Assembly (NCBI GenBank): GCA_025358645.1
Contig: JANYIW010000158.1
Span: 1-45,998 of the forward strand
Length of the DNA stretch: 45,998 bases
Direction: 5' to 3'
Origin: Bacteroidales bacterium
GTDB taxonomy: Bacteria > Bacteroidota > Bacteroidia > Bacteroidales > VadinHA17
Under the pieces are notes generated by a model. The model was given only the letters and a program-made list of their open reading frames with translations. It was not told where the DNA came from and did no database searches. Shown in pieces: positions 18,260 to 35,034 of the stretch; positions within the stretch are counted from its first letter, which is position 1, and every line of letters starts with the position of its first letter. The position numbers and the translations under genes are program-made.

Positions 18260-19621
18260 ATGAAAAAATTTATAATCATCTCCATTCTGGCGGCTTTGTT
18301 TGGCGCTGGTACGACACTCATGGCACAGGATAAACAGGAAGCTTACCTGGGTCTGCCAGGGGATAATCTTAATCTTTATGCTGTGATGAAGCTGTTCCAG
18401 CAATCAAAAACGCTTGAAGAGTTCGAAAGAATCCTTAACGATGAGAAATCCAATATCAATAATCTCGACCTTAATGGAGATAACATGGTGGATTACATTA
18501 AAGTATTTGATGATGTGGATGGCGATGTTCATAATATTGTATTGCAGGTTTCAGTAAGCCCGAAGGAAAACCAGGACATTGCTGTTTTTACAGTTCAACG
18601 ATTTAACAATGGACAGGTGCAAATCCAGCTTACCGGTGACGAAGAATTATATGGTAAGAATTATATTATTGAACCTATATTTGATAATGAAAACAACGGT
18701 GAGACACCTAATCCCGGATATTCGGGGAATACACGGTCTGTTGACGGACAGAATATAACTTATATTAGCACCACACCGGCTGAAATTGCCGGCTGGCCTC
18801 TGATAAGATTTATGTACCTTCCCTCCTATACAATCTGGCATTCTTCATGGTATTGGGACTATTACCCGACATACTGGCATCCATGGCGTCCGGCTTACTA
18901 TCATTACTATTACGGGTATCATTATAACCGGGATAATGATTATTTCGGACATTACCGCCGTTGGGACTCCCACCGCTATACAAGATGGAATGACTTTTAT
19001 TACAGTGGAAGGCGTTCTTTTTCCCCTGATGTTAATCGCAGAATAGAGGTTGGTACATATAAAGCAACATATTCACATCCCGACCAGAGAAAAGATGGAG
19101 AAAATAAGTTCGCTAAAATGCATCCTGATGAATACAGACGATCCTCAGATAATTCATCAGGGAATAACTCTGTAAGAAGATCCGATCAACAATCGAAAAA
19201 TGTCGGACAATCTAACGGGAATAGGACCAGCACTACACGAAGATCAACAACCACAACGACAAATAGATCCGCAACTGATCCATCCGCTGGTAAGAATACG
19301 GGGACAACCAGGAGATCATCAGGCGCAGTTAATAACAAGTCAGTGGTAAATCGTCCACCGGAAAAACCCATTGTAACCACTCGAAGGTCATCCACAACCG
19401 TGACAGACAAGTCAGTGGTAACTCGTCCACCGGAAAAACCAAATGTAACCACCCGAAGGTCATCCACAACAGTGACAGACAAGTCAGTTGTAAATCGTCC
19501 ACCTGAAAAAAACAATATTACTAACCGAAGGACTGTCAATAAAAACAAATCAGAAGCGACAATTAAAAAAGATAACAACCAGAAAGAGACTGATAACAAA
19601 GACGCTACCCGTAGAAAATAA
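18260..19621 (+). CDS. Secreted Tyr/Trp/His-rich protein with C-terminal 24-residue repeats
   Basis: A 453-residue protein with a signal peptide ending LMAQ (~23). Three zones follow. Residues ~25-155 form a globular domain with an Asp-rich stretch (LDLNGDNMVDYIKVFDDVDGD) that resembles a calcium-binding loop. Residues ~185-265 are crowded with Tyr, Trp, His and Arg (for example WYWDYYPTYWHPW). Residues ~290-453 are Ser/Thr/Arg/Pro-rich and include three 24-residue copies built on KSVVxRPPEK and TTRRSSTTV. I do not know the family; the layout suggests an envelope or matrix-associated protein. A strong terminator follows. The opposite-strand frame over the repeats is an artefact of the repeat. 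Confidence 0.75.
   Translation: MKKFIIISILAALFGAGTTLMAQDKQEAYLGLPGDNLNLYAVMKLFQQSKTLEEFERILNDEKSNINNLDLNGDNMVDYIKVFDDVDGDVHNIVLQVSVSPKENQDIAVFTVQRFNNGQVQIQLTGDEELYGKNYIIEPIFDNENNGETPNPGYSGNTRSVDGQNITYISTTPAEIAGWPLIRFMYLPSYTIWHSSWYWDYYPTYWHPWRPAYYHYYYGYHYNRDNDYFGHYRRWDSHRYTRWNDFYYSGRRSFSPDVNRRIEVGTYKATYSHPDQRKDGENKFAKMHPDEYRRSSDNSSGNNSVRRSDQQSKNVGQSNGNRTSTTRRSTTTTTNRSATDPSAGKNTGTTRRSSGAVNNKSVVNRPPEKPIVTTRRSSTTVTDKSVVTRPPEKPNVTTRRSSTTVTDKSVVNRPPEKNNITNRRTVNKNKSEATIKKDNNQKETDNKDATRRK
19337..19531 (+). repeat. 72-bp in-frame tandem repeat (about 2.7 copies)
   Basis: Copies begin with AAGTCAGT at 19337, 19409 and 19481, exactly 72 bp apart, and encode a 24-residue Arg/Thr/Pro unit. The first two are nearly identical at DNA level, so the array is probably young or kept homogeneous; the third decays after ~50 bp. 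Confidence 0.9.
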
Positions 19622-19748: not shown

Positions 19749-19765
19749 TTTCTCATTTTGAGAAA
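19749..19765. promoter_or_regulatory. Palindrome TTTCTCA-N3-TGAGAAA, candidate activator site
   Basis: A perfect inverted repeat, 7 bp per arm with a 3-nt centre. Its core TTCTCA-N3-TGAGAA appears again upstream of the coiled-coil gene at 24231. It lies ~100 bp upstream of possible -24/-12 elements and ~150 bp upstream of the receiver-only gene. That is the usual position of enhancer sites for NtrC-type activators, one of which is encoded in this cluster. Binding is inferred. Confidence 0.5.
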
Positions 19766-19851
19766 TATTTTCTTTAACAACCTTCAAATAATTTAAAGAT
19801 TCATAACATAATTAATTAATATCTAATTAGATACAAATTGATGTCACCTTA

Positions 19852-19877
19852 TGGAGATAATCTGGCACATTTTTAGA
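19852..19877 (+). promoter_or_regulatory. Candidate -24/-12 (sigma-54-like) promoter
   Basis: Two overlapping matches are possible. TGGAGATAATCTGGCA (19852-19867) keeps the invariant GG and GC exactly 10 nt apart. TGGCACATTTTTAGA (19863-19877) has the perfect -24 box but GA in place of GC. Either would start RNA 20-30 nt before the ATG at 19909. A TTG/TAnnTTTG-type housekeeping promoter is not excluded. Confidence 0.35.
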
Positions 19878-19908
19878 ATAGTATCAACAAAACCAAGACG
19901 AAAGCATT

Positions 19909-20328
19909 ATGAAACAAACAGTCAATATACTTGTCGTTGAAGATAATGAATACTATAACAGTCTAATTTATAATGCCTTGCAGCAAAGCACTCATTTTGT
20001 GGAACATAAAATGAAATACAAATTGGTTCTACATTCATTTATAGATTCCTATAATTGCATTCGAAAAATTGAATCCCGTGAATTTATTGATAACGATGTT
20101 ATTGCTTTTGTTGATTATAATATGGATAATGGGACCAGTGGCGCAGAGATCATACGGTTGCTGAAAAAAGAAAACAACAATACCCTTGCAATCCTGCTCT
20201 CACAATCACGTACTATAGAAGAAAGAAGCACTCAGAATAATTACGATTTTTTTGTAATAAAGGATACTTTTGCTCCTGCACTCTGCAGATTATATCTTGA
20301 TCAATATATTGAAAATAAATTTTTATAG
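19909..20328 (+). CDS. Receiver-only response regulator
   Basis: A 139-residue single receiver domain. Acidic residues E11/D12 (VVEDNEYYN), phospho-acceptor D69 (FVDYNMDNG), Ser98/Ser100 (LLSQS) and Lys118 (VIKD) complete the active site; the Lys is followed by Asp instead of the common Pro. There is no output domain, so it likely acts as a phosphate shuttle or sink, or binds a partner. The pattern VEDxExYNxL is shared with the receiver of the NtrC-type protein downstream, which suggests that the two arose by duplication. First gene of the cluster; 32 bp separate it from the kinase start chosen here. Confidence 0.85.
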   Translation: MKQTVNILVVEDNEYYNSLIYNALQQSTHFVEHKMKYKLVLHSFIDSYNCIRKIESREFIDNDVIAFVDYNMDNGTSGAEIIRLLKKENNNTLAILLSQSRTIEERSTQNNYDFFVIKDTFAPALCRLYLDQYIENKFL

Positions 20329-20360
20329 CTTTGGGTATTATTTATCCTTCCAAAATACCC

Positions 20361-22757
20361 GTGAAGAAAATTTCAGTTCAGCTAAAGATTGGATTATTAA
20401 TGATACTGGCAGTTGTCCTTCTCTCAGCAACCGGTTATCTATCCTATCGCAATCTTTCTTCAATAGTTACTTCAATTCAGTTGGACTTAAAACCTGACCT
20501 TCGGATATTAAGCATCAGGGAAATTTCAATGGATCTGGAAAAGGCACAGAACAGTATCCGCATTTATACCAGTACCCATAATACACTGGATCTTAACCTT
20601 TATTACGGTATCATCTCTAACATTGATGGTAAGGTTAGCAGGTTGCGTTCCGAATGTTTGACTGATTCTTTGGTTCTCCAACAGACTGATACAATCAGTA
20701 AGCTCATTGAAAAAAATATAGTTATCTGGAACCAGATTTTGTATCTCTATAATAACCACACTGTTGTTGAAGATCTTAAACAATTATCTGACCGGTTGGA
20801 TAGTAGTTCATTGGAAGCAAGTAAAACTGAAAAGAATATACTCAAACGTGTTTTCAATAGCACAAATAAAAACAGGTTGAATGAAAAAGAAATTATCAGT
20901 AATCTTAAAGAGATAGAACAGCAAGACAGCATAACAAAGGAAAGATTGATGATGAGGGAGTCAACGTTAGCTGTCACCAGCTCTGAAATCAAAGAACAGT
21001 TTTATGACCTGATTACCAAAATTGAAAATGAAATTACCGGAATTATTAATGCAAAAGCTTTAGCAGCCAATAAATTAGCAGCAAGAACCTACATCTGGCT
21101 GGCTATGTTTTCTGTTTCGGGCACTCTCCTGGCAATTTTAGTTATGCTTATAATTGTCCGATATGTAAGAAAGACCTATGTTTATCAGATTGCCCTTCAG
21201 ACTTCTAAAGATGAAGCCGAAAAACTGGCACGGACAAAAGAACTCTTTATGGCTAATATGAGTCATGAGATCCGTACACCTGTAACAGCTATTTCAGGGT
21301 TTACAGAACAGCTTTTGCATGAACCATTAGATGAAAATACAAACCGTACGCTGAAAATTATCAAATCCTCCTCCGATCATCTGGCGAAAATAATTAATGA
21401 TATTCTCGATTTTGCCAAATTGCAGAATGGAAGATTATCACTGGAAAAAGTACATTTCACTGTTGCACAAATTCTCGAAGATGTATTTGCGCTGTTTGAA
21501 AGAAATGCGCTCAGGAATAACACCAGCTTAACCTATTCAATAAGCCCGGAGACCCCTGATGTTTTGCTGGGAGATCCTTACCGTCTAAAACAAATAATGA
21601 TTAATCTGGTTAGTAATTCAGTCAAATTCACTAAAAACGGGATGGTAAATTTAAGTGTGGATTGTATCAAAAAGGGATCGGCAGAAATTGAACTGGTCAT
21701 AGAGGTAACTGATACGGGTATTGGTATTGAAGAGAGTAAAATAGACTTTATTTTTGAAGATTTCACCCAGGAAGAGATGAGCACTACCCGCAAATATGGC
21801 GGAACAGGATTAGGTTTATCGATAGTCAAAAAGCTTATAGAATTGCAGAGCGGTACTATTGTTTGCGTAAGCAGGAAGAATCATGGAACCACAATTACCT
21901 GTAATATTCCCTACCAGACTGGTGATGAAAAACTGGTCAGAAAAGAGGTTATTCCTCCCTTGTATATTCCTGAAGAAATCAGAAATCTGAAAATACTGAT
22001 TGTCGATGATGAAGAATACAACCGTCTCCTTTTCAAAACGATACTGGACAGGTGGAAAGTCAGTAATCATGAGGTTGCAAATGGAATGGAAGCTTTGGAA
22101 ATATTAAAATCACATCGGTTTGATCTATTGTTTATGGATGCCAGAATGCCTGGTATTGACGGATTAAAAGCTACCCAGTTTATCAGGGATGAAATGAATA
22201 TTACGGAATCAGAAATGCCGGTGATCTGTATCTCGGCTGCCTCCGTAAAAGAAGACTGGCAAAAATACCGACAGGCCGGGATGAATGCGGTGCTTCCAAA
22301 ACCATTTACTGAAGAGACATTACTAACAACAATTCTTTCTGTGATTAAAGATTATGAACCGGTTGCAAATGTTGAACCAATTAGTGAAGAAAAAATTAAA
22401 TCTACTGCTCCGGATAAAATTAATTTAGATAATCTTTATCACATTTCAGGGGGTGATGAACAGTTTGTAAAGCAGATGCTGGTCTCTTTTATCGATTCAA
22501 CAAAAAAAGGTCTGGACGAAATGCAGGAGGCCGTAAAATCTGGTCGGGTGGACTCCATCGCGGATCTGGCACATAAAATGTTACCTCCATGTAAGCATAT
22601 AGGCGCATCGGATCTTTACAATCTCCTTAGAAAGTTTGAAGAAAATATTAAAAATAATGTTGAACCACAGGCTCTTGAGAAACTGTCGGCAGAAACACTT
22701 CTGGAATTTGAAATCGTAAGTGGCCTTATTAAAGATCAAATTACAAAAATCAGTTAA
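20361..22757 (+). CDS. Hybrid histidine kinase: sensor, HisKA, HATPase, receiver, Hpt
   Basis: I take the GTG at 20361 as start (798 residues, MKKISVQLKIGLLM), since the upstream TTG adds a non-signal-like peptide and the next ATG would cut the first membrane helix. Helices at ~8-28 and ~244-268 enclose a ~215-residue periplasmic, helical sensor with no family I know. HisKA has His302 (NMSHEIRTP); HATPase_c has NLVSNSVKF (~415-423), DTGIGI (~451-456) and GGTGLGLS. The receiver has D549/D550, acceptor Asp593 (FMDARMPGID) and Lys647. The C-terminal Hpt has His738 in DLAHKMLPP. All parts of a His-Asp-His relay are thus in one chain; the onward Asp is probably in the NtrC-type or receiver-only protein. 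Confidence 0.93.
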   Translation: MKKISVQLKIGLLMILAVVLLSATGYLSYRNLSSIVTSIQLDLKPDLRILSIREISMDLEKAQNSIRIYTSTHNTLDLNLYYGIISNIDGKVSRLRSECLTDSLVLQQTDTISKLIEKNIVIWNQILYLYNNHTVVEDLKQLSDRLDSSSLEASKTEKNILKRVFNSTNKNRLNEKEIISNLKEIEQQDSITKERLMMRESTLAVTSSEIKEQFYDLITKIENEITGIINAKALAANKLAARTYIWLAMFSVSGTLLAILVMLIIVRYVRKTYVYQIALQTSKDEAEKLARTKELFMANMSHEIRTPVTAISGFTEQLLHEPLDENTNRTLKIIKSSSDHLAKIINDILDFAKLQNGRLSLEKVHFTVAQILEDVFALFERNALRNNTSLTYSISPETPDVLLGDPYRLKQIMINLVSNSVKFTKNGMVNLSVDCIKKGSAEIELVIEVTDTGIGIEESKIDFIFEDFTQEEMSTTRKYGGTGLGLSIVKKLIELQSGTIVCVSRKNHGTTITCNIPYQTGDEKLVRKEVIPPLYIPEEIRNLKILIVDDEEYNRLLFKTILDRWKVSNHEVANGMEALEILKSHRFDLLFMDARMPGIDGLKATQFIRDEMNITESEMPVICISAASVKEDWQKYRQAGMNAVLPKPFTEETLLTTILSVIKDYEPVANVEPISEEKIKSTAPDKINLDNLYHISGGDEQFVKQMLVSFIDSTKKGLDEMQEAVKSGRVDSIADLAHKMLPPCKHIGASDLYNLLRKFEENIKNNVEPQALEKLSAETLLEFEIVSGLIKDQITKIS

Positions 22758-22833
22758 AACTATGGCAAATTCGGCCATTTTTACTTTACTTTGCAAGTAC
22801 TGGAATTATCAATAAACCAGAATTCGTCAAGAT

Positions 22834-24183
22834 ATGTCTGAAAAGCCTTTTAAAATATTTGTTGTAGAAGACAGCGAATGGTATAACAGGCTTTTAGTCC
22901 ACACTCTTTCTCTAAATCCTGACTTTGAGATAAAAAGTTTTTTCAATGGGAAAGATTTTCTGAATAATCTTTTTGAATTACCTGATATTGTAACCCTTGA
23001 TTACAGGCTTCCGGATTATACAGGGCTTGAGGTGCTGAAAAGAATCAGAGAGGAGAATAGCGATGTTCAGGTTATACTCATTTCAGAACAGGAAGATATT
23101 GATACGGTAGTCAGTCTGCTAAAAATGGGAGCTTATGACTATATAAGCAAGTCAGACGATATTAAGGACCGGCTCATAAACACAGTCAAGAATATCAGGA
23201 ACGGTATCGGACTTAAGAGAGAGATAACCACGCTGCGCAAAGAAGTTCAAAAGAAATACAGTTTTCGTGAAAGCATACTGGGCGAAAGTCCCGCTATAAT
23301 GAGTGTCTACGACCTTATTGACAAAACTCTTAGTTCAAACATTACAGTTATTATTTCAGGCGAAACAGGAACAGGAAAAGAATTGGTTGCAAAGGCGATT
23401 CATTACAATTCAAAGCGAAAAGACAAATCATTCGTTACAGTTAATGTTGCTGCTATCCCATCCGAATTGATTGAGAGCGAATTGTTCGGTCATGAAAAAG
23501 GCGCCTTTACGGGCGCTTCCTACAGACGAATAGGCCGTTTTGAAGAAGCAGACGGAGGTACCCTCTTTCTTGACGAAATAGGAGAAATGGAACTGAATTT
23601 ACAGGCAAAGTTATTGCGTGTTCTGCAGGAAAAAGAGATTGTCAGGATAGGCAGTAACAAGCCCGTTAAGACCGACTGCCGGATTGTTGTTGCAACAAAT
23701 AAAAACCTGAAAGAGGAAGTAAAGAGAGGAAACTTCAGGGAAGATCTGTATTACAGACTTTTAGGATTACCTATCGAGTTACCTCCTTTACGCGACAGAG
23801 CAAATGATATATTGATTCTGGCCGGGAATTTTATTGGAAAATTCTGCGAAGAAAACAATATAATGTTAAAAAAACTGTCAGTAGAATCACAAAAAAAACT
23901 TATGAATTATCCGTTTCCTGGAAACGTCCGCGAATTAAAATCGGTTATTGAACTCGCGGTAACCATCTCGGAGAATGGTGTTATTGAACCAACTGATCTT
24001 GTGATTGACAGAGGTGATCCACTGTCTGATGTTGCCAATGACAATCTGACCCTGAGGGAATACCAGGTGAAAATAATTAAAGCCACTCTCAAAAAGAATA
24101 ATGACGATATCAAACTTGCTGCCGAAAAGCTCGATATTGGAATTTCTACCATTTACCGCATATTAAAGGAAGAGAAGGAGTAA
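22834..24183 (+). CDS. NtrC-type sigma-54-dependent response regulator
   Basis: A 449-residue protein with the classic three domains. The receiver (1-~120) has acceptor Asp56 (LDYRLPDYTG) and Lys106, followed by Ser rather than Pro. The AAA+ domain (~147-375) has Walker A GETGTGKE (176-183), the sigma-54 loop GAFTGA (223-228), Walker B TLFLDEIGE (243-251) and arginine-finger region FREDLYYRL (301-309). The Fis-type helix-turn-helix is at ~410-445 (DIKLAAEKLDIGISTIYRIL). It should drive open-complex formation with RpoN. It sits 76 bp after the kinase, so it is the natural partner. Palindromes upstream of 19909 and 24397 are candidate binding sites. Confidence 0.95.
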   Translation: MSEKPFKIFVVEDSEWYNRLLVHTLSLNPDFEIKSFFNGKDFLNNLFELPDIVTLDYRLPDYTGLEVLKRIREENSDVQVILISEQEDIDTVVSLLKMGAYDYISKSDDIKDRLINTVKNIRNGIGLKREITTLRKEVQKKYSFRESILGESPAIMSVYDLIDKTLSSNITVIISGETGTGKELVAKAIHYNSKRKDKSFVTVNVAAIPSELIESELFGHEKGAFTGASYRRIGRFEEADGGTLFLDEIGEMELNLQAKLLRVLQEKEIVRIGSNKPVKTDCRIVVATNKNLKEEVKRGNFREDLYYRLLGLPIELPPLRDRANDILILAGNFIGKFCEENNIMLKKLSVESQKKLMNYPFPGNVRELKSVIELAVTISENGVIEPTDLVIDRGDPLSDVANDNLTLREYQVKIIKATLKKNNDDIKLAAEKLDIGISTIYRILKEEKE

Positions 24184-24230
24184 TGAATAACTCCTGCTTA
24201 ATGAATACTCTCTGTCCATTATCTTTTTTC

Positions 24231-24264
24231 TTCTCAATATGAGAATTGATTTCTCAAAATGAAC
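24231..24264. promoter_or_regulatory. TTCTCA-N3-TGAGAA palindrome plus degenerate second copy
   Basis: TTCTCAATATGAGAA (24231-24245) is a perfect inverted repeat with the same core as the site at 19749. TTCTCAAAATGAAC (24251-24264) is a second copy with a decayed right arm, and its centre is 20 bp away (about two helix turns). Both lie 75-100 bp upstream of the -24/-12-like element at 24333. Tandem sites on one DNA face are typical of NtrC-type activator enhancers. Binding is inferred. Confidence 0.5.
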
Positions 24265-24332
24265 TATTTATTATTCTAAGTGCTCGTAGGCAACGTACTC
24301 ATTTTAAATACGTTAATGTCATTAATAATTTA

Positions 24333-24396: not shown

Positions 24397-25380
24397 ATGA
24401 CAAATGAAGTAAACAGTACCCGTCCTATCGCAAATGATAATGCGGCTTCAAGAAATAACGAAAGAAAGGCAAAGAAAGAAGGAATGAAAAAAGGCATTTG
24501 GACAACACTAATAGTGTGTCTTCTTCTTTTGGTAGTAGCCGGTTTCGTCGTAAATTCAATGTATAATAATGAGCAGAAAAAACATCTTGCTATTGTAGAA
24601 AACCAAAAACACTCATTTACACAATTATTAACTTCCAGAGACTCAGTTATCAACGAATGGATGTTAACATTTGATCAAATTGAAAAAGATCTGAGCACAG
24701 TAAAAGAGAAAGAAAACATAATAACGATGAAGTCGTCGGATAAAGAGTTTTCTAAAGACAAAAAGGAGCAGATACTAAAGGATATTGAGTATGTTAATAC
24801 TCTGCTCGATCAGAATAAAAAGAAGATAGCCTCGTTGACAGCACAACTAAAGAATTCAGGTGGCACAATTAAAGGCCTGCAGGTTAAAATGGCAGAACTT
24901 GAAACTACTATGAAACTTCGTGAAACTGAAATAGCTGAACTTAAAGTAAATCTGACTCAAAAGGATTTCGAAATCGGACAACTTAATACAAAAATGACTG
25001 ATCAGCAGATTGCAATTGCACAGAAGGATGAGAAAATCAGTAATCAGTTTGCTGAGATGAACAAAGGTTTTGTAGCTTATGGAACATACAAAACTCTTAA
25101 AGCAAAGGGTCTGGTTTCTAAGGAAGGCGGATTTCTGGGACTTGGTAAGAAAGAGTCATTACACCAGGATTTTTCTGATAGTTTATTTACCCAGGTCAAT
25201 ATTAAAGAAACGAAAAGTATTCCTGTGAATTCAAAATCTGCAAAGCTTATTACTGAACACCCAACCAACTCCTACGCTTTGGTTCGTGACAAAAACAATA
25301 AAATTGCAAGCATAGAGATAAAAGATCCGGAACAGTTCTGGAAAATATCAAAGTATGCTGTTGTGGAAATTAAGAATTAA
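24397..25380 (+). CDS. Single-pass membrane protein with long coiled coil
   Basis: A 327-residue protein. A polar, basic N-terminus (~1-32) precedes one membrane helix (~33-53, WTTLIVCLLLLVVAGFVV), then ~55-225 is heptad-rich coiled coil with Lys/Glu/Gln, including KMAELETTMKLRETEIAELK. The last ~100 residues form a small globular domain with KSAKLITEHPTNSYAL and DPEQFWKISKYAVVEI. Orientation is probably N-in, so coil and C-domain are periplasmic. I know no function; it resembles uncharacterised Bacteroidota envelope proteins. It has its own upstream palindromes, a strong ribosome-binding site and a terminator, and follows the NtrC-type gene, so I infer that it is an output of that regulator. 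Confidence 0.85.
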   Translation: MTNEVNSTRPIANDNAASRNNERKAKKEGMKKGIWTTLIVCLLLLVVAGFVVNSMYNNEQKKHLAIVENQKHSFTQLLTSRDSVINEWMLTFDQIEKDLSTVKEKENIITMKSSDKEFSKDKKEQILKDIEYVNTLLDQNKKKIASLTAQLKNSGGTIKGLQVKMAELETTMKLRETEIAELKVNLTQKDFEIGQLNTKMTDQQIAIAQKDEKISNQFAEMNKGFVAYGTYKTLKAKGLVSKEGGFLGLGKKESLHQDFSDSLFTQVNIKETKSIPVNSKSAKLITEHPTNSYALVRDKNNKIASIEIKDPEQFWKISKYAVVEIKN

Positions 25381-25395
25381 AAGGTTTATGCTCTG

Positions 25396-25417
25396 AATTT
25401 AAGGCATACGTTGTGAA
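25396..25417 (+). repeat. Second copy of AATTTAAGGCATA promoter-like motif
   Basis: AATTTAAGGCATA at 25396-25408 repeats the 13 bp at 24327-24339 exactly, and the GG-N10-GA pattern is also kept (GG 25403, GA 25414). It lies between the coiled-coil gene stop and its terminator. It could be a promoter for a very short RNA or a relic of duplication. Confidence 0.4.
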
Positions 25418-25428
25418 AAGCAAAGTAT

Positions 25429-25468
25429 GAGGCCTCACGGGATTTTAAATCCGTGGGGCCTTTTTTTT
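25429..25468 (+). terminator. Rho-independent terminator
   Basis: GGCCTCACGGGATTT pairs with AAATCCGTGGGGCC (one bulge, one G-T pair) and is followed by eight T. It ends the coiled-coil gene transcript and shows that the open frame running through it is not the start of the next gene. Confidence 0.9.
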
Positions 25469-25573
25469 AAGTCAGAATTATTTATAATTTCGTCAAAAGA
25501 TTTTTTTTCCCGGGAACAAATACCGGACTTCAATACGACCGCATGCTATAAATGTAATAAAGTAAACATTAAA

Positions 25574-28108: not shown

Positions 28109-28429
28109 TTATTTCTTAACAGGAGGTTTAGTTGCTGGTTTCGGGCCCGTCTTAGGCATCCCGGCTTTTGCTTCCATTTTTTTCAGGAATTTTCCTGTAT
28201 TATCATAACTGAGAGTCTCCTGCATGGTTCCTTTTGCGATAACAACCTCATATGTCACAACATTGTTTTCAACAACTTTTGTTGCATCCTTTATTGTAAA
28301 ACCAACATAGTCTTTAGCAACATTGTCAGTAATAGACTTCTGAAGGTCTGCAACTTTTACAGGTGTACGTTGAGCATTAACAACTAAAGCTCCCATCACC
28401 AATACCATAACGAATAATAACTTTTTCAT
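28109..28429 (-). CDS. PepSY-like small periplasmic protein
   Basis: A 106-residue protein with a signal peptide (MKKLLFVMVLVMGALVVNAQ). The core YVGFTIKDATKVVENN and YEVVIAKGTMQETLSYD, with final strand GKFLKK, fits the PepSY-like domain of Bacteroidota. The last ~20 residues are Lys/Pro-rich (GPKPATKPPVKK). Such proteins bind or inhibit envelope partners and often lie beside two-component systems, as here: the kinase gene is 116 bp away on the same strand, so it may be a target or feedback partner of that system. Confidence 0.75.
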   Translation of the reverse strand: MKKLLFVMVLVMGALVVNAQRTPVKVADLQKSITDNVAKDYVGFTIKDATKVVENNVVTYEVVIAKGTMQETLSYDNTGKFLKKMEAKAGMPKTGPKPATKPPVKK

Positions 28430-33971: not shown

Positions 33972-35034
33972 ACTTCCTACTATTCCTCACTAAAACAAGC
34001 TCTGCAGCAATACTTATGGCAATCTCTTCAACTGTTCTGGATTTAATATCAATTCCCAAAGGAGAATGAAGGATATCCCACTGTTTAGCAGTGGCCCATT
34101 TGTTTTCCATAAAACTATCCCGCATTGATGCAATCTTACGCTTACTTCCGATCATGCCTGTATAAGCCAAATCAGATCCAATACAAGGTTTAAGAGCTGC
34201 TGCATCATCTTTATGACCGCGTGTCACAATTACAACATAAGTATCCCTGGTCTTCTGCAAGTCATTCATTGATTCACCAATATCATTAACCAGAATATGG
34301 TCAGCCTCAGGGATATTCTCAGAATTAGCATATTCAGGACGGTCATCAATCACAGTAACTTCAAAATCAAGCATATCTGCAAGATGCGCCAACACTTTAC
34401 CAATATGACCCGCACCAGCTATTATAAGGTGGGCAGGAGGGAACACAGGTTCAAGAAAAAAGAGTGAGGAAGCCTCTGCATCAGATAGAGTAAGCTCCAA
34501 TTCTCTGTAATCTGATGGATCACCTTTAGAGAGCATATTATGTATGACAGGCTCAATTTTTTCAAGAAACTCCGCTGACATGTCTGGTTTAAAGGTCTTG
34601 CTTATCCAGTAACGGTTTATAAGTACTTTTTCTTCGGCGAGACCGGTAATCATTGTTATAAGAACTCCCGGAACATGATCTTCAATAGATTTTCCAAGCT
34701 GTTCAAACACTGATAAATGATTATTCAGGTTGGCATCAATCAGTATAGTGATCTGTCCACCACAGATAGCTTCTTCTTTATTTGAGATATCATTCGCCAG
34801 GTCAAACTGAAAATGTCCTGATGATTTTGAGTTAATAGCTTCAAGGGCCAGTCTCTGAACTCTCCCTTCCACAATTCCGCCTCCAACCGTTCCGGCAATA
34901 AGTCCATTATAATCAAACAAAGCAGAACTGCCTGGTTTCTGCGGTGTTGAACCATGCGTCCGGGTAACAGTACAGAGAACCAGACAGGAGCTATCTGATT
35001 TATGATCATGAAGTTGTAGATAAATGTTCTTCAT
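33961..35034 (-). CDS. XdhC/CoxI-family Mo-cofactor maturation protein
   Basis: A 357-residue protein. The N-terminal XdhC domain has TRTHGSTPQKPGS and GTVGGGIVEG. The C-terminal Rossmann domain has LIIAGAGHIGKVLAHLA, then VIDDRPEYAN and GMIGSKRK. XdhC binds the Mo cofactor, helps add the sulfido ligand and hands it to the hydroxylase. It is the first gene of the four-gene operon. The last codons (KCEA and stop) are made of the repeat array, so the C-terminus may have been changed by repeat growth. Confidence 0.92.
   Translation of the reverse strand: MKNIYLQLHDHKSDSSCLVLCTVTRTHGSTPQKPGSSALFDYNGLIAGTVGGGIVEGRVQRLALEAINSKSSGHFQFDLANDISNKEEAICGGQITILIDANLNNHLSVFEQLGKSIEDHVPGVLITMITGLAEEKVLINRYWISKTFKPDMSAEFLEKIEPVIHNMLSKGDPSDYRELELTLSDAEASSLFFLEPVFPPAHLIIAGAGHIGKVLAHLADMLDFEVTVIDDRPEYANSENIPEADHILVNDIGESMNDLQKTRDTYVVIVTRGHKDDAAALKPCIGSDLAYTGMIGSKRKIASMRDSFMENKWATAKQWDILHSPLGIDIKSRTVEEIAISIAAELVLVRNSRKCEA

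Follow-up and report, generated by a model that had tools for sequence, protein, structure and literature searches.

A Conserved TTCTCA-N3-TGAGAA Dyad Is the Probable Enhancer of an NtrC-Type Activator with a Coiled-Coil Output in Bacteroidales

The window studied here is a 45,998-nucleotide contig (C231) of the 4.06-Mb draft genome of a Bacteroidales bacterium (G000). It carries a phosphorelay operon, which encodes a single-domain response regulator, a hybrid histidine kinase, and an NtrC-type activator, followed by a gene for a coiled-coil protein of the Cbp1 family; all four genes are on the + strand. The inverted repeat TTCTCA-N3-TGAGAA lies upstream of the operon and again upstream of the coiled-coil gene. 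We propose that this dyad is very probably the upstream activating sequence (UAS), or enhancer, of the σ54-dependent activator, with an autoregulated phosphorelay and the coiled-coil protein as output. An earlier note on this DNA had suggested such an enhancer and such an output, and at the level of sequence the suggestion is supported by the rarity of the dyad, its spacing, and its conservation with the activator.

Results

Exact matches to the dyad occur at two places in the window (UAS-R and UAS-C1; Table 1). The earlier note had placed the second correctly but had drawn the first, at 19749-19765, one base too wide on each side. The degenerate third copy that it described is also present (UAS-C2); this copy has 3 mismatches, lies exactly 20 bp downstream of UAS-C1, and is kept as a tandem site in relatives. 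From base composition we expected 0.005 exact dyads in the window and 0.46 in the draft genome (G+C content, 0.376), and we observed 2 and 3, respectively. A reversed control pattern had no match in the 4.06-Mb genome. The third exact site (G000:C145:13488-13502) is unlinked to the window and belongs to an array, with a 1-mismatch copy 30 bp from the exact dyad.

We found that each of the three exact sites is followed by a -24/-12-like element. The elements downstream of the two window dyads, which the earlier note had called promoter-like, begin 113 and 102 bp from the dyad start. The element at C145, TGGCATATCCTTTGTT, begins 122 bp from the dyad, toward a gene for a 60-amino-acid (60-aa) CsbD-like protein. 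The motif is therefore not scattered at random over the genome, an outcome that would have counted against the enhancer: only three exact sites exist, each 102 to 122 bp from such an element. The genome encodes σ54 (Sigma54_DBD at C89, E = 5.8e-51). With their fixed spacing and with rpoN in the genome, the -24/-12 elements class by sequence as σ54 promoters.

With up to 2 mismatches allowed, the sole additional match in the window was at 34316. With 3 allowed, there were 42 window matches against 39.6 expected, and degenerate matches are therefore uninformative by themselves. A 2-mismatch scan of the genome gave 361 forward and 241 control matches, and we rejected it as evidence. Among 22 1-mismatch sites in the genome, one belongs to the CsbD-like array. 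We fetched 10 others; each overlaps a predicted open reading frame (ORF), and their -24/-12-like scores at 75 to 134 bp did not exceed 12, a value that one of them reached.

The proposed binder of the dyad is the activator encoded in the cluster. Its Pfam scores were 72.7 bits for Response_reg, 240.7 bits for Sigma54_activat, and 66.7 bits for the AAA lid; HTH_8 reached 21.2 bits, marginally below its cutoff of 22. Both a Walker A motif (GETGTGKE) and GAFTGA are present in the translation. The protein is thus a σ54-dependent response regulator of the NtrC type, as the earlier note had said. It is not an equivalog by NCBIfam; among the 25 of 99 matches listed, the best was AtoC, at 385.5 bits against a cutoff of 714.

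In 62 genomes of the genus, we found an orthologue of the activator (68 to 98% identity, whole or in pieces) in 27, this one included. A 28th genome, G051, has the upstream operon at a contig end. Where the response regulator gene is the first of the operon, a dyad with at most 1 mismatch precedes it in 20 of 21 loci (17 exact), and in all 20 promoters with the dyad the -24 element starts 111 to 114 bp from the dyad start. Outside this count of 21 are L245 (G060:C91), where we recognized no response regulator ORF, and L097, L098, and L107, where the contig ends before the operon start. In 12 of the 21 operon promoters, divergent ones all picked among those with the dyad, the dyad arms were 98% conserved, the -24 GGCA was present in 12/12, and the flanks were 46 to 50% conserved. 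The -12 of these chosen promoters was partly conserved; it was mostly TTGGA, TTTGA, or TTTGT, not the canonical TTGCA. In two loci, L088 (G046) and L089 (G061), a gene of the type found at 18260-19621 of the window stands directly before the kinase gene, and the response regulator gene and dyad are missing, as if a single deletion had removed both.

We then found the same dyad at the coiled-coil promoter. Between the activator gene and the coiled-coil gene, the best dyad showed no more than 1 mismatch in 26 of 27 loci and was exact in 20 of them. The top-scoring -24/-12 element was 99 to 102 bp from the dyad in 22 of the 27; it was at 81 bp in L094 and L108 (upstream tandem copy at 101 bp) and at 106 bp in L095, and it was unreadable in L102 (Ns). 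A second copy 19 to 20 bp away was present in 21 of the 27 loci with up to 3 mismatches, compared with 1.4% at random places, and in 25 with up to 4. The dyad of L108 is 1010 bp from the activator gene and just upstream of the coiled-coil gene. Since it stays near the latter, the dyad belongs to the coiled-coil promoter. The conservation upstream of orthologous genes that the earlier note expected was thus found at both promoters, with nearly fixed spacing.

Two side observations concern this locus. At positions 161-275 of L228 (G006:C23) there is a copied coiled-coil promoter (dyad, tandem copy, and -24/-12) with the first coiled-coil residues, which precedes a gene resembling, by eye, the window ORF at 28109-28429 near a contig end; this is a duplicated promoter or a rearrangement. 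The coiled-coil gene of L087 (G019) and the activator genes of L109 (G044) and L110 (G006) are split in two frames in the drafts.

Paralogues of the coiled-coil gene away from the activator had the dyad with a -24/-12 element in 0 of the 9 read upstream (10 of about 15 nonfragment copies, L115 to L124, were fetched; L117 was not scored upstream). One of them, L124, has a 1-mismatch dyad without a -24/-12 element.

The CsbD-like family is multicopy in the genus, with 97 matches in 27 of the 62 genomes, 50 of which we read upstream. The dyad, with no more than 2 mismatches and exact in 6 cases, precedes 10 of the 11 highest-scoring copies, which are one each in 11 genomes, all cluster-bearing; the -24 elements are 120 to 126 bp from the dyad. 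The dyad was present before 0 of the other 39 copies read, of which L398 and L401 have less than 160 bp upstream and L411 is broken. The 39 include the best copies of some cluster-bearing genomes, and the CsbD-like target is therefore confined to part of the genus. With dyad plus promoter at none of the nine distant coiled-coil paralogues and the dyad at none of these 39 copies, the motif is tied to the NtrC gene. G000 itself has six CsbD-like genes (C145, C115, C319, C259, C59, and C14), only one with the dyad. L230, L241, and L238 were considered as promoters without a gene and rejected; each precedes a CsbD-like gene.

A profile of the six 60-aa proteins matched 1yww PA4738 (E = 0.007) and 1ryk YjbJ (E = 0.012), which we take to be CsbD-family proteins. 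Two designed repeat proteins outscored both, through repeated short matches. One of the six proteins reached 13.2 bits in Pfam CsbD (PF05532), against a gathering score of 40, and the others had no match to this family. Because the Pfam cutoff was missed and the name rests on the 1yww and 1ryk profile matches, we call these proteins CsbD-like only.

When the 62 genus genomes were searched for a composite pattern (dyad half-sites plus -24/-12), 37 places matched, spread over 23 genomes, versus 3 for the reversed control. By our own sorting, 33 of the 37 are phosphorelay promoters (15, with G060:C91 only probable), coiled-coil promoters (12, one being the copy before a partial gene at L228), or CsbD-like promoters (6). 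The remaining 4 are due to chance or to one dyad being read twice. The exact motif with an A/T loop (TTCTCA-WWW-TGAGAA) is present in 26 of 28 cluster-bearing genomes and 5 of 34 others, in statistics that ignore kinship; this contingency is inflated because sites in an ORF of ~328 aa were counted, and we do not rest on it. Away from the cluster we examined 30 such sites, 10 of them regulon-like, and three or four of these are operon promoters on other contigs. The conserved ~328-aa ORF carries the A/T-loop motif at its 3' end in nine genomes (L226, L229, L231, L233, L235, L237, L239, L240, and L246). We rejected these nine sites as regulatory; the match is coincidental, within coding sequence, and scans for the motif could be misled by it.

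Beyond the genus, the activator was present at E ≤ 1e-120 in 86 of 393 sampled genomes of the order, this one counted, and we fetched 60 of the 105 nonself matches (L325 to L384). In the 250 bp after each activator gene, we scored a TCA-N3-TGA dyad with a -24/-12-like element 75 to 130 bp on. Dyad plus promoter was present in 31 of 52 relatives whose helix-turn-helix (HTH) has no Lys in GxxTIYR (non-K), split as 19/28 in the genus, 10/21 in the order, and 2/3 in other Bacteroidota; outside the genus it is thus only partly kept (12/24 non-K loci). A coiled-coil homologue follows the activator in 44 of the 52. Relatives with a GK[S/T] HTH had dyad plus promoter in 0/54 and a coiled-coil gene in 0/54; one has a dyad without a promoter element. 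The background for dyad plus promoter was 0.47% of 5350 Markov-resampled sequences. Left out of the HTH comparison were L112 and L114 (no complete HTH) and L158, L168, L169, L155, and L146 (contigs shared with genus loci). L364, in which the HTH pattern was not found, was left out of the Fisher test, and L111, a 50% paralogue, was kept as non-K. Nine further order matches that we viewed are K-type and without a coiled-coil gene. By reading, several non-K loci that gave no scored match (e.g., L326, L333, and L335) have degenerate TCA-N3-TGA pairs, and L329, L330, L331, and L339 (non-K) have neither a coiled-coil gene nor a dyad. L150 to L167 and L345 to L384 hold a large activator sister group, mostly with the HTH GK[S/T]TIYR and with no coiled-coil gene downstream; L347 and L155 are not members of it.

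The sequence of the dyad also varies among the relatives. The TTCTCA dyad of L347 (activator, 53% identity; coiled-coil protein, 28%) is exact, and that of L147 (58% identity; Bacteroidetes metagenome-assembled genome J049) has one mismatch and lies 98 bp from the -24. The HTH GQAT[V/I]YR pairs with TTATCA-N3-TGATAA in 4/4 loci, 98 to 102 bp from the -24; a search for it as a composite site found a single occurrence per genome in these four and no occurrence in four other genomes that were searched alike. Among the 31 scored dyads, the ATCA type accounted for 8 of the 12 whose HTH has Ala or Thr at the Ser position and for 0 of the 19 whose HTH has Ser, 18 of the latter being from one genus. 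The dyad of L149 is TTTTCA.

Discussion

The UAS of a bacterial enhancer-binding protein (bEBP) is a dyad some 100 bp before a -24/-12 element (the distance ranges roughly from 80 to 200 bp), is often tandem and in helical phase, and is conserved with a REC-AAA+-HTH gene. We found such a dyad, upstream of -24/-12 and conserved with the activator, at all but one of the 21 operons and all but one of the 27 coiled-coil promoters. From this match, the most likely reading is that the operon turns on both its own transcription and that of the coiled-coil gene. According to this model, phosphate would travel from the hybrid kinase, by way of the REC and HPt domains of that kinase, to the activator. 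Once phosphorylated, the activator would oligomerize on the dyad, and at the coiled-coil promoter on two dyads 20 bp apart. It would then loop to the σ54 polymerase at -24/-12, some 100 to 120 bp downstream, and ATP hydrolysis would start transcription. Three targets are predicted. The first is the operon of the response regulator, the kinase, and the activator itself, which would make the autoregulation positive; the second is the neighboring gene for the coiled-coil envelope protein of the Cbp1 family; and the third, in some members of the genus, is one gene from the set of CsbD-like 60-aa proteins. On the best reading, the coiled-coil protein would be the most widely kept target of the regulon. 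CsbD proteins are stress induced in other bacteria, and the σ54 genes of Flavobacterium psychrophilum, discussed below, include envelope-stress genes; by analogy, an envelope or osmotic stress response is a reasonable guess.

Several observations weigh against this model. The operon of L094 (G064) has two degenerate dyads 20 bp apart and no clear -24/-12. Four of 25 readable operon 5' ends (L088, L089, L096, and L108) are without the response regulator gene, and in none of these four does a dyad with 0 to 2 mismatches precede the activator gene. The absence of the response regulator gene thus goes together with that of the dyad, and therefore autoregulation through the dyad is not universal. 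The -12 of the window operon itself (TAGAA) matches less well than TTGGA, the form in most relatives, and L087, with its split coiled-coil gene, has an exact dyad and no -24/-12 at the usual spacing. The best CsbD-like copies of the cluster-bearing genomes G046, G018, G042, G063, and G066 are without the dyad. Of the 30 off-cluster A/T-loop sites, 9 are in the one conserved ORF, 7 are in other ORFs, and 4 are unassigned. No scored dyad plus -24/-12 was present in 21 of the 52 non-K relatives, and the K/non-K split, which was drawn post hoc, may simply follow phylogeny. L105, L336, and L347 keep TTCTCA without Ser, and the association of dyad and HTH is therefore present but loose. The relatedness of the sequences makes the Fisher values too small.

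A 6-N3-6 palindrome would suit many dimeric HTH regulators, and the dyad lies well upstream of the promoter, with binding by the NtrC protein inferred from sequence. It could thus be the operator of another regulator, a repressor or an activator, that controls these genes together with the NtrC protein. We consider this unlikely, since the dyad travels with the NtrC gene across genomes at a near-fixed distance to the -24 and since ATCA-type dyads were found only with an HTH without Ser (8/12 versus 0/19, 18 of the 19 from one genus). The dyad is also self-complementary and A+T rich, and one copy stands just after the activator stop codon, so it might act as an RNA or DNA structure, such as a hairpin, a terminator, or a nucleoid-protein site. 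We judge such a role very improbable. By reading, six pairs make up the stem, of which four are A-U, and no U-run comes after it; a copy lies upstream of the phosphorelay promoter, the tandem copies are 20 bp apart, and in L108, where 1010 bp separate the dyad from the activator gene, the dyad remains at the coiled-coil promoter. Finally, a short A+T-rich palindrome may recur by chance, and indeed the degenerate window matches are at chance level and one conserved ORF carries the exact motif coincidentally. In our view, however, the conservation, the spacing, and the control counts already refute chance, to which we give next to no weight.

Read as the UAS of the activator, the dyad fits a familiar design. 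NtrC/ZraR-type σ54 activators likewise have a REC-AAA+-Fis HTH architecture, dyads ~100 bp upstream of -24/-12, tandem in-phase sites, and autoregulation. In contrast, the dyad sequence here is another one, the kinase is a hybrid with HPt accompanied by a separate single-domain response regulator, and the targets are Cbp1-family coiled-coil and CsbD-like proteins. The 60-aa proteins of G000 are like the CsbD family (YjbJ and PA4738) by profile but far below the Pfam CsbD cutoff. The mechanism is ordinary, a σ54 enhancer and an autoregulated phosphorelay; the system was not found described, and the sequence evidence is unusually clear. To our knowledge, few Bacteroidota σ54 activators have a proposed binding site or regulon.

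The available text on Cbp1 (BF0586) of Bacteroides fragilis describes a collagen type I adhesin, with its collagen binding, glycosylation, and surface exposure (PMC3949742). The main text of the paper contains none of the words "promoter," "operon," and "upstream" and a single instance of "regulat." The window coiled-coil protein falls within the same NF052320 family. Unlike B. fragilis Cbp1, it has an N-terminal hydrophobic segment, and family membership does not imply collagen binding here. The σ54 regulon of F. psychrophilum, also a Bacteroidota -24/-12 regulon, covers protein quality control, envelope stress, and exported proteins, with three predicted activators; in the passages available, an enhancer motif is not described and none of the activators is matched to a promoter (PMC9723704). 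Among the literature matches listed, with subscription papers mostly outside, we found nothing on the motif, on σ54 control of cbp1, or on an activator-controlled CsbD gene of Bacteroidota. Both half-site strings occur in PMC5715377, which we rejected as coincidence; in the passages at hand, the strings are in primers.

Here, sequence alone yields an activator together with its site, a regulon of three promoters, and site variants that occur naturally. It also gives a regulatory handle on Cbp1-family proteins, for which the one relevant paper found, in its available text, describes solely the B. fragilis adhesin (PMC3949742). More speculatively, and we hold this to be rather doubtful, the locus may represent an undescribed, order-wide σ54 system of Bacteroidota in which enhancer and activator HTH co-evolve and whose ancestral job was inducing a Cbp1-family coiled-coil envelope protein. 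The Ser HTH G[I/V]STIYR would go with TTCTCA, and an Ala HTH such as GQATVYR mostly with ATCA/TGAT, with three exceptions. If this is true, Cbp1-family proteins annotated as collagen adhesins in other Bacteroidota would be regulated envelope-stress proteins, and the CsbD-like protein would be a later recruit in part of one genus.

Gene products and other features of the cluster

Table 1. Dyads, promoter elements, and genes of the cluster (window coordinates)
Feature	Coordinates	Strand	Remarks
UAS-R dyad TTCTCATTTTGAGAA	19750..19764	none	Upstream of phosphorelay operon
-24/-12 (σ54-type) element TGGCACATTTTTAGAA	19863..19878	+	113 bp, dyad start to element start
Single-domain response regulator	19909..20328	+	Pfam Response_reg E = 1.7e-4, 22.1 bits, below gathering score 30.2
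Hybrid histidine kinase, HisKA-HATPase-REC-HPt	20331..22757	+	Pfam; start codon uncertain
NtrC-type activator, REC-AAA+-Fis HTH, proposed dyad binder	22834..24183	+	Pfam Sigma54_activat E = 8.8e-72
UAS-C1 dyad TTCTCAATATGAGAA	24231..24245	none	Upstream of coiled-coil gene
UAS-C2, degenerate tandem copy TTCTCAAAATGAACT	24251..24265	none	20 bp from UAS-C1
-24/-12 element of coiled-coil gene AGGCATAGTGTTTGAA	24333..24348	+	102 bp from dyad start
Putatively membrane-anchored coiled-coil protein, Cbp1 family, proposed main output	24397..25380	+	NCBIfam NF052320

The kinase gives a weak HPt match, with E = 8.8e-4 and 19.9 bits where the gathering score is 24.6. The coiled-coil protein passes NF052320, "Cbp1 family collagen-binding glycoprotein adhesin," with 194 bits against a cutoff of 90, and it had no Pfam family at E ≤ 0.001. 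Its N-terminal polar tail and hydrophobic segment read as a membrane anchor; both this anchor and the coiled coil were judged from the translation by reading. The coiled-coil orthologue at 4792-5691 of L147 has a lipoprotein-like start (a cysteine after a hydrophobic stretch), unlike the window protein, and the type of anchor seems to differ between the two.

Directly 3' of the coiled-coil gene, the sequence at 25402-25417, AGGCATACGTTGTGAA, closely resembles the -24/-12 element of that gene. It is followed at ~25430-25470, by eye, by a terminator-like hairpin with a T-run.

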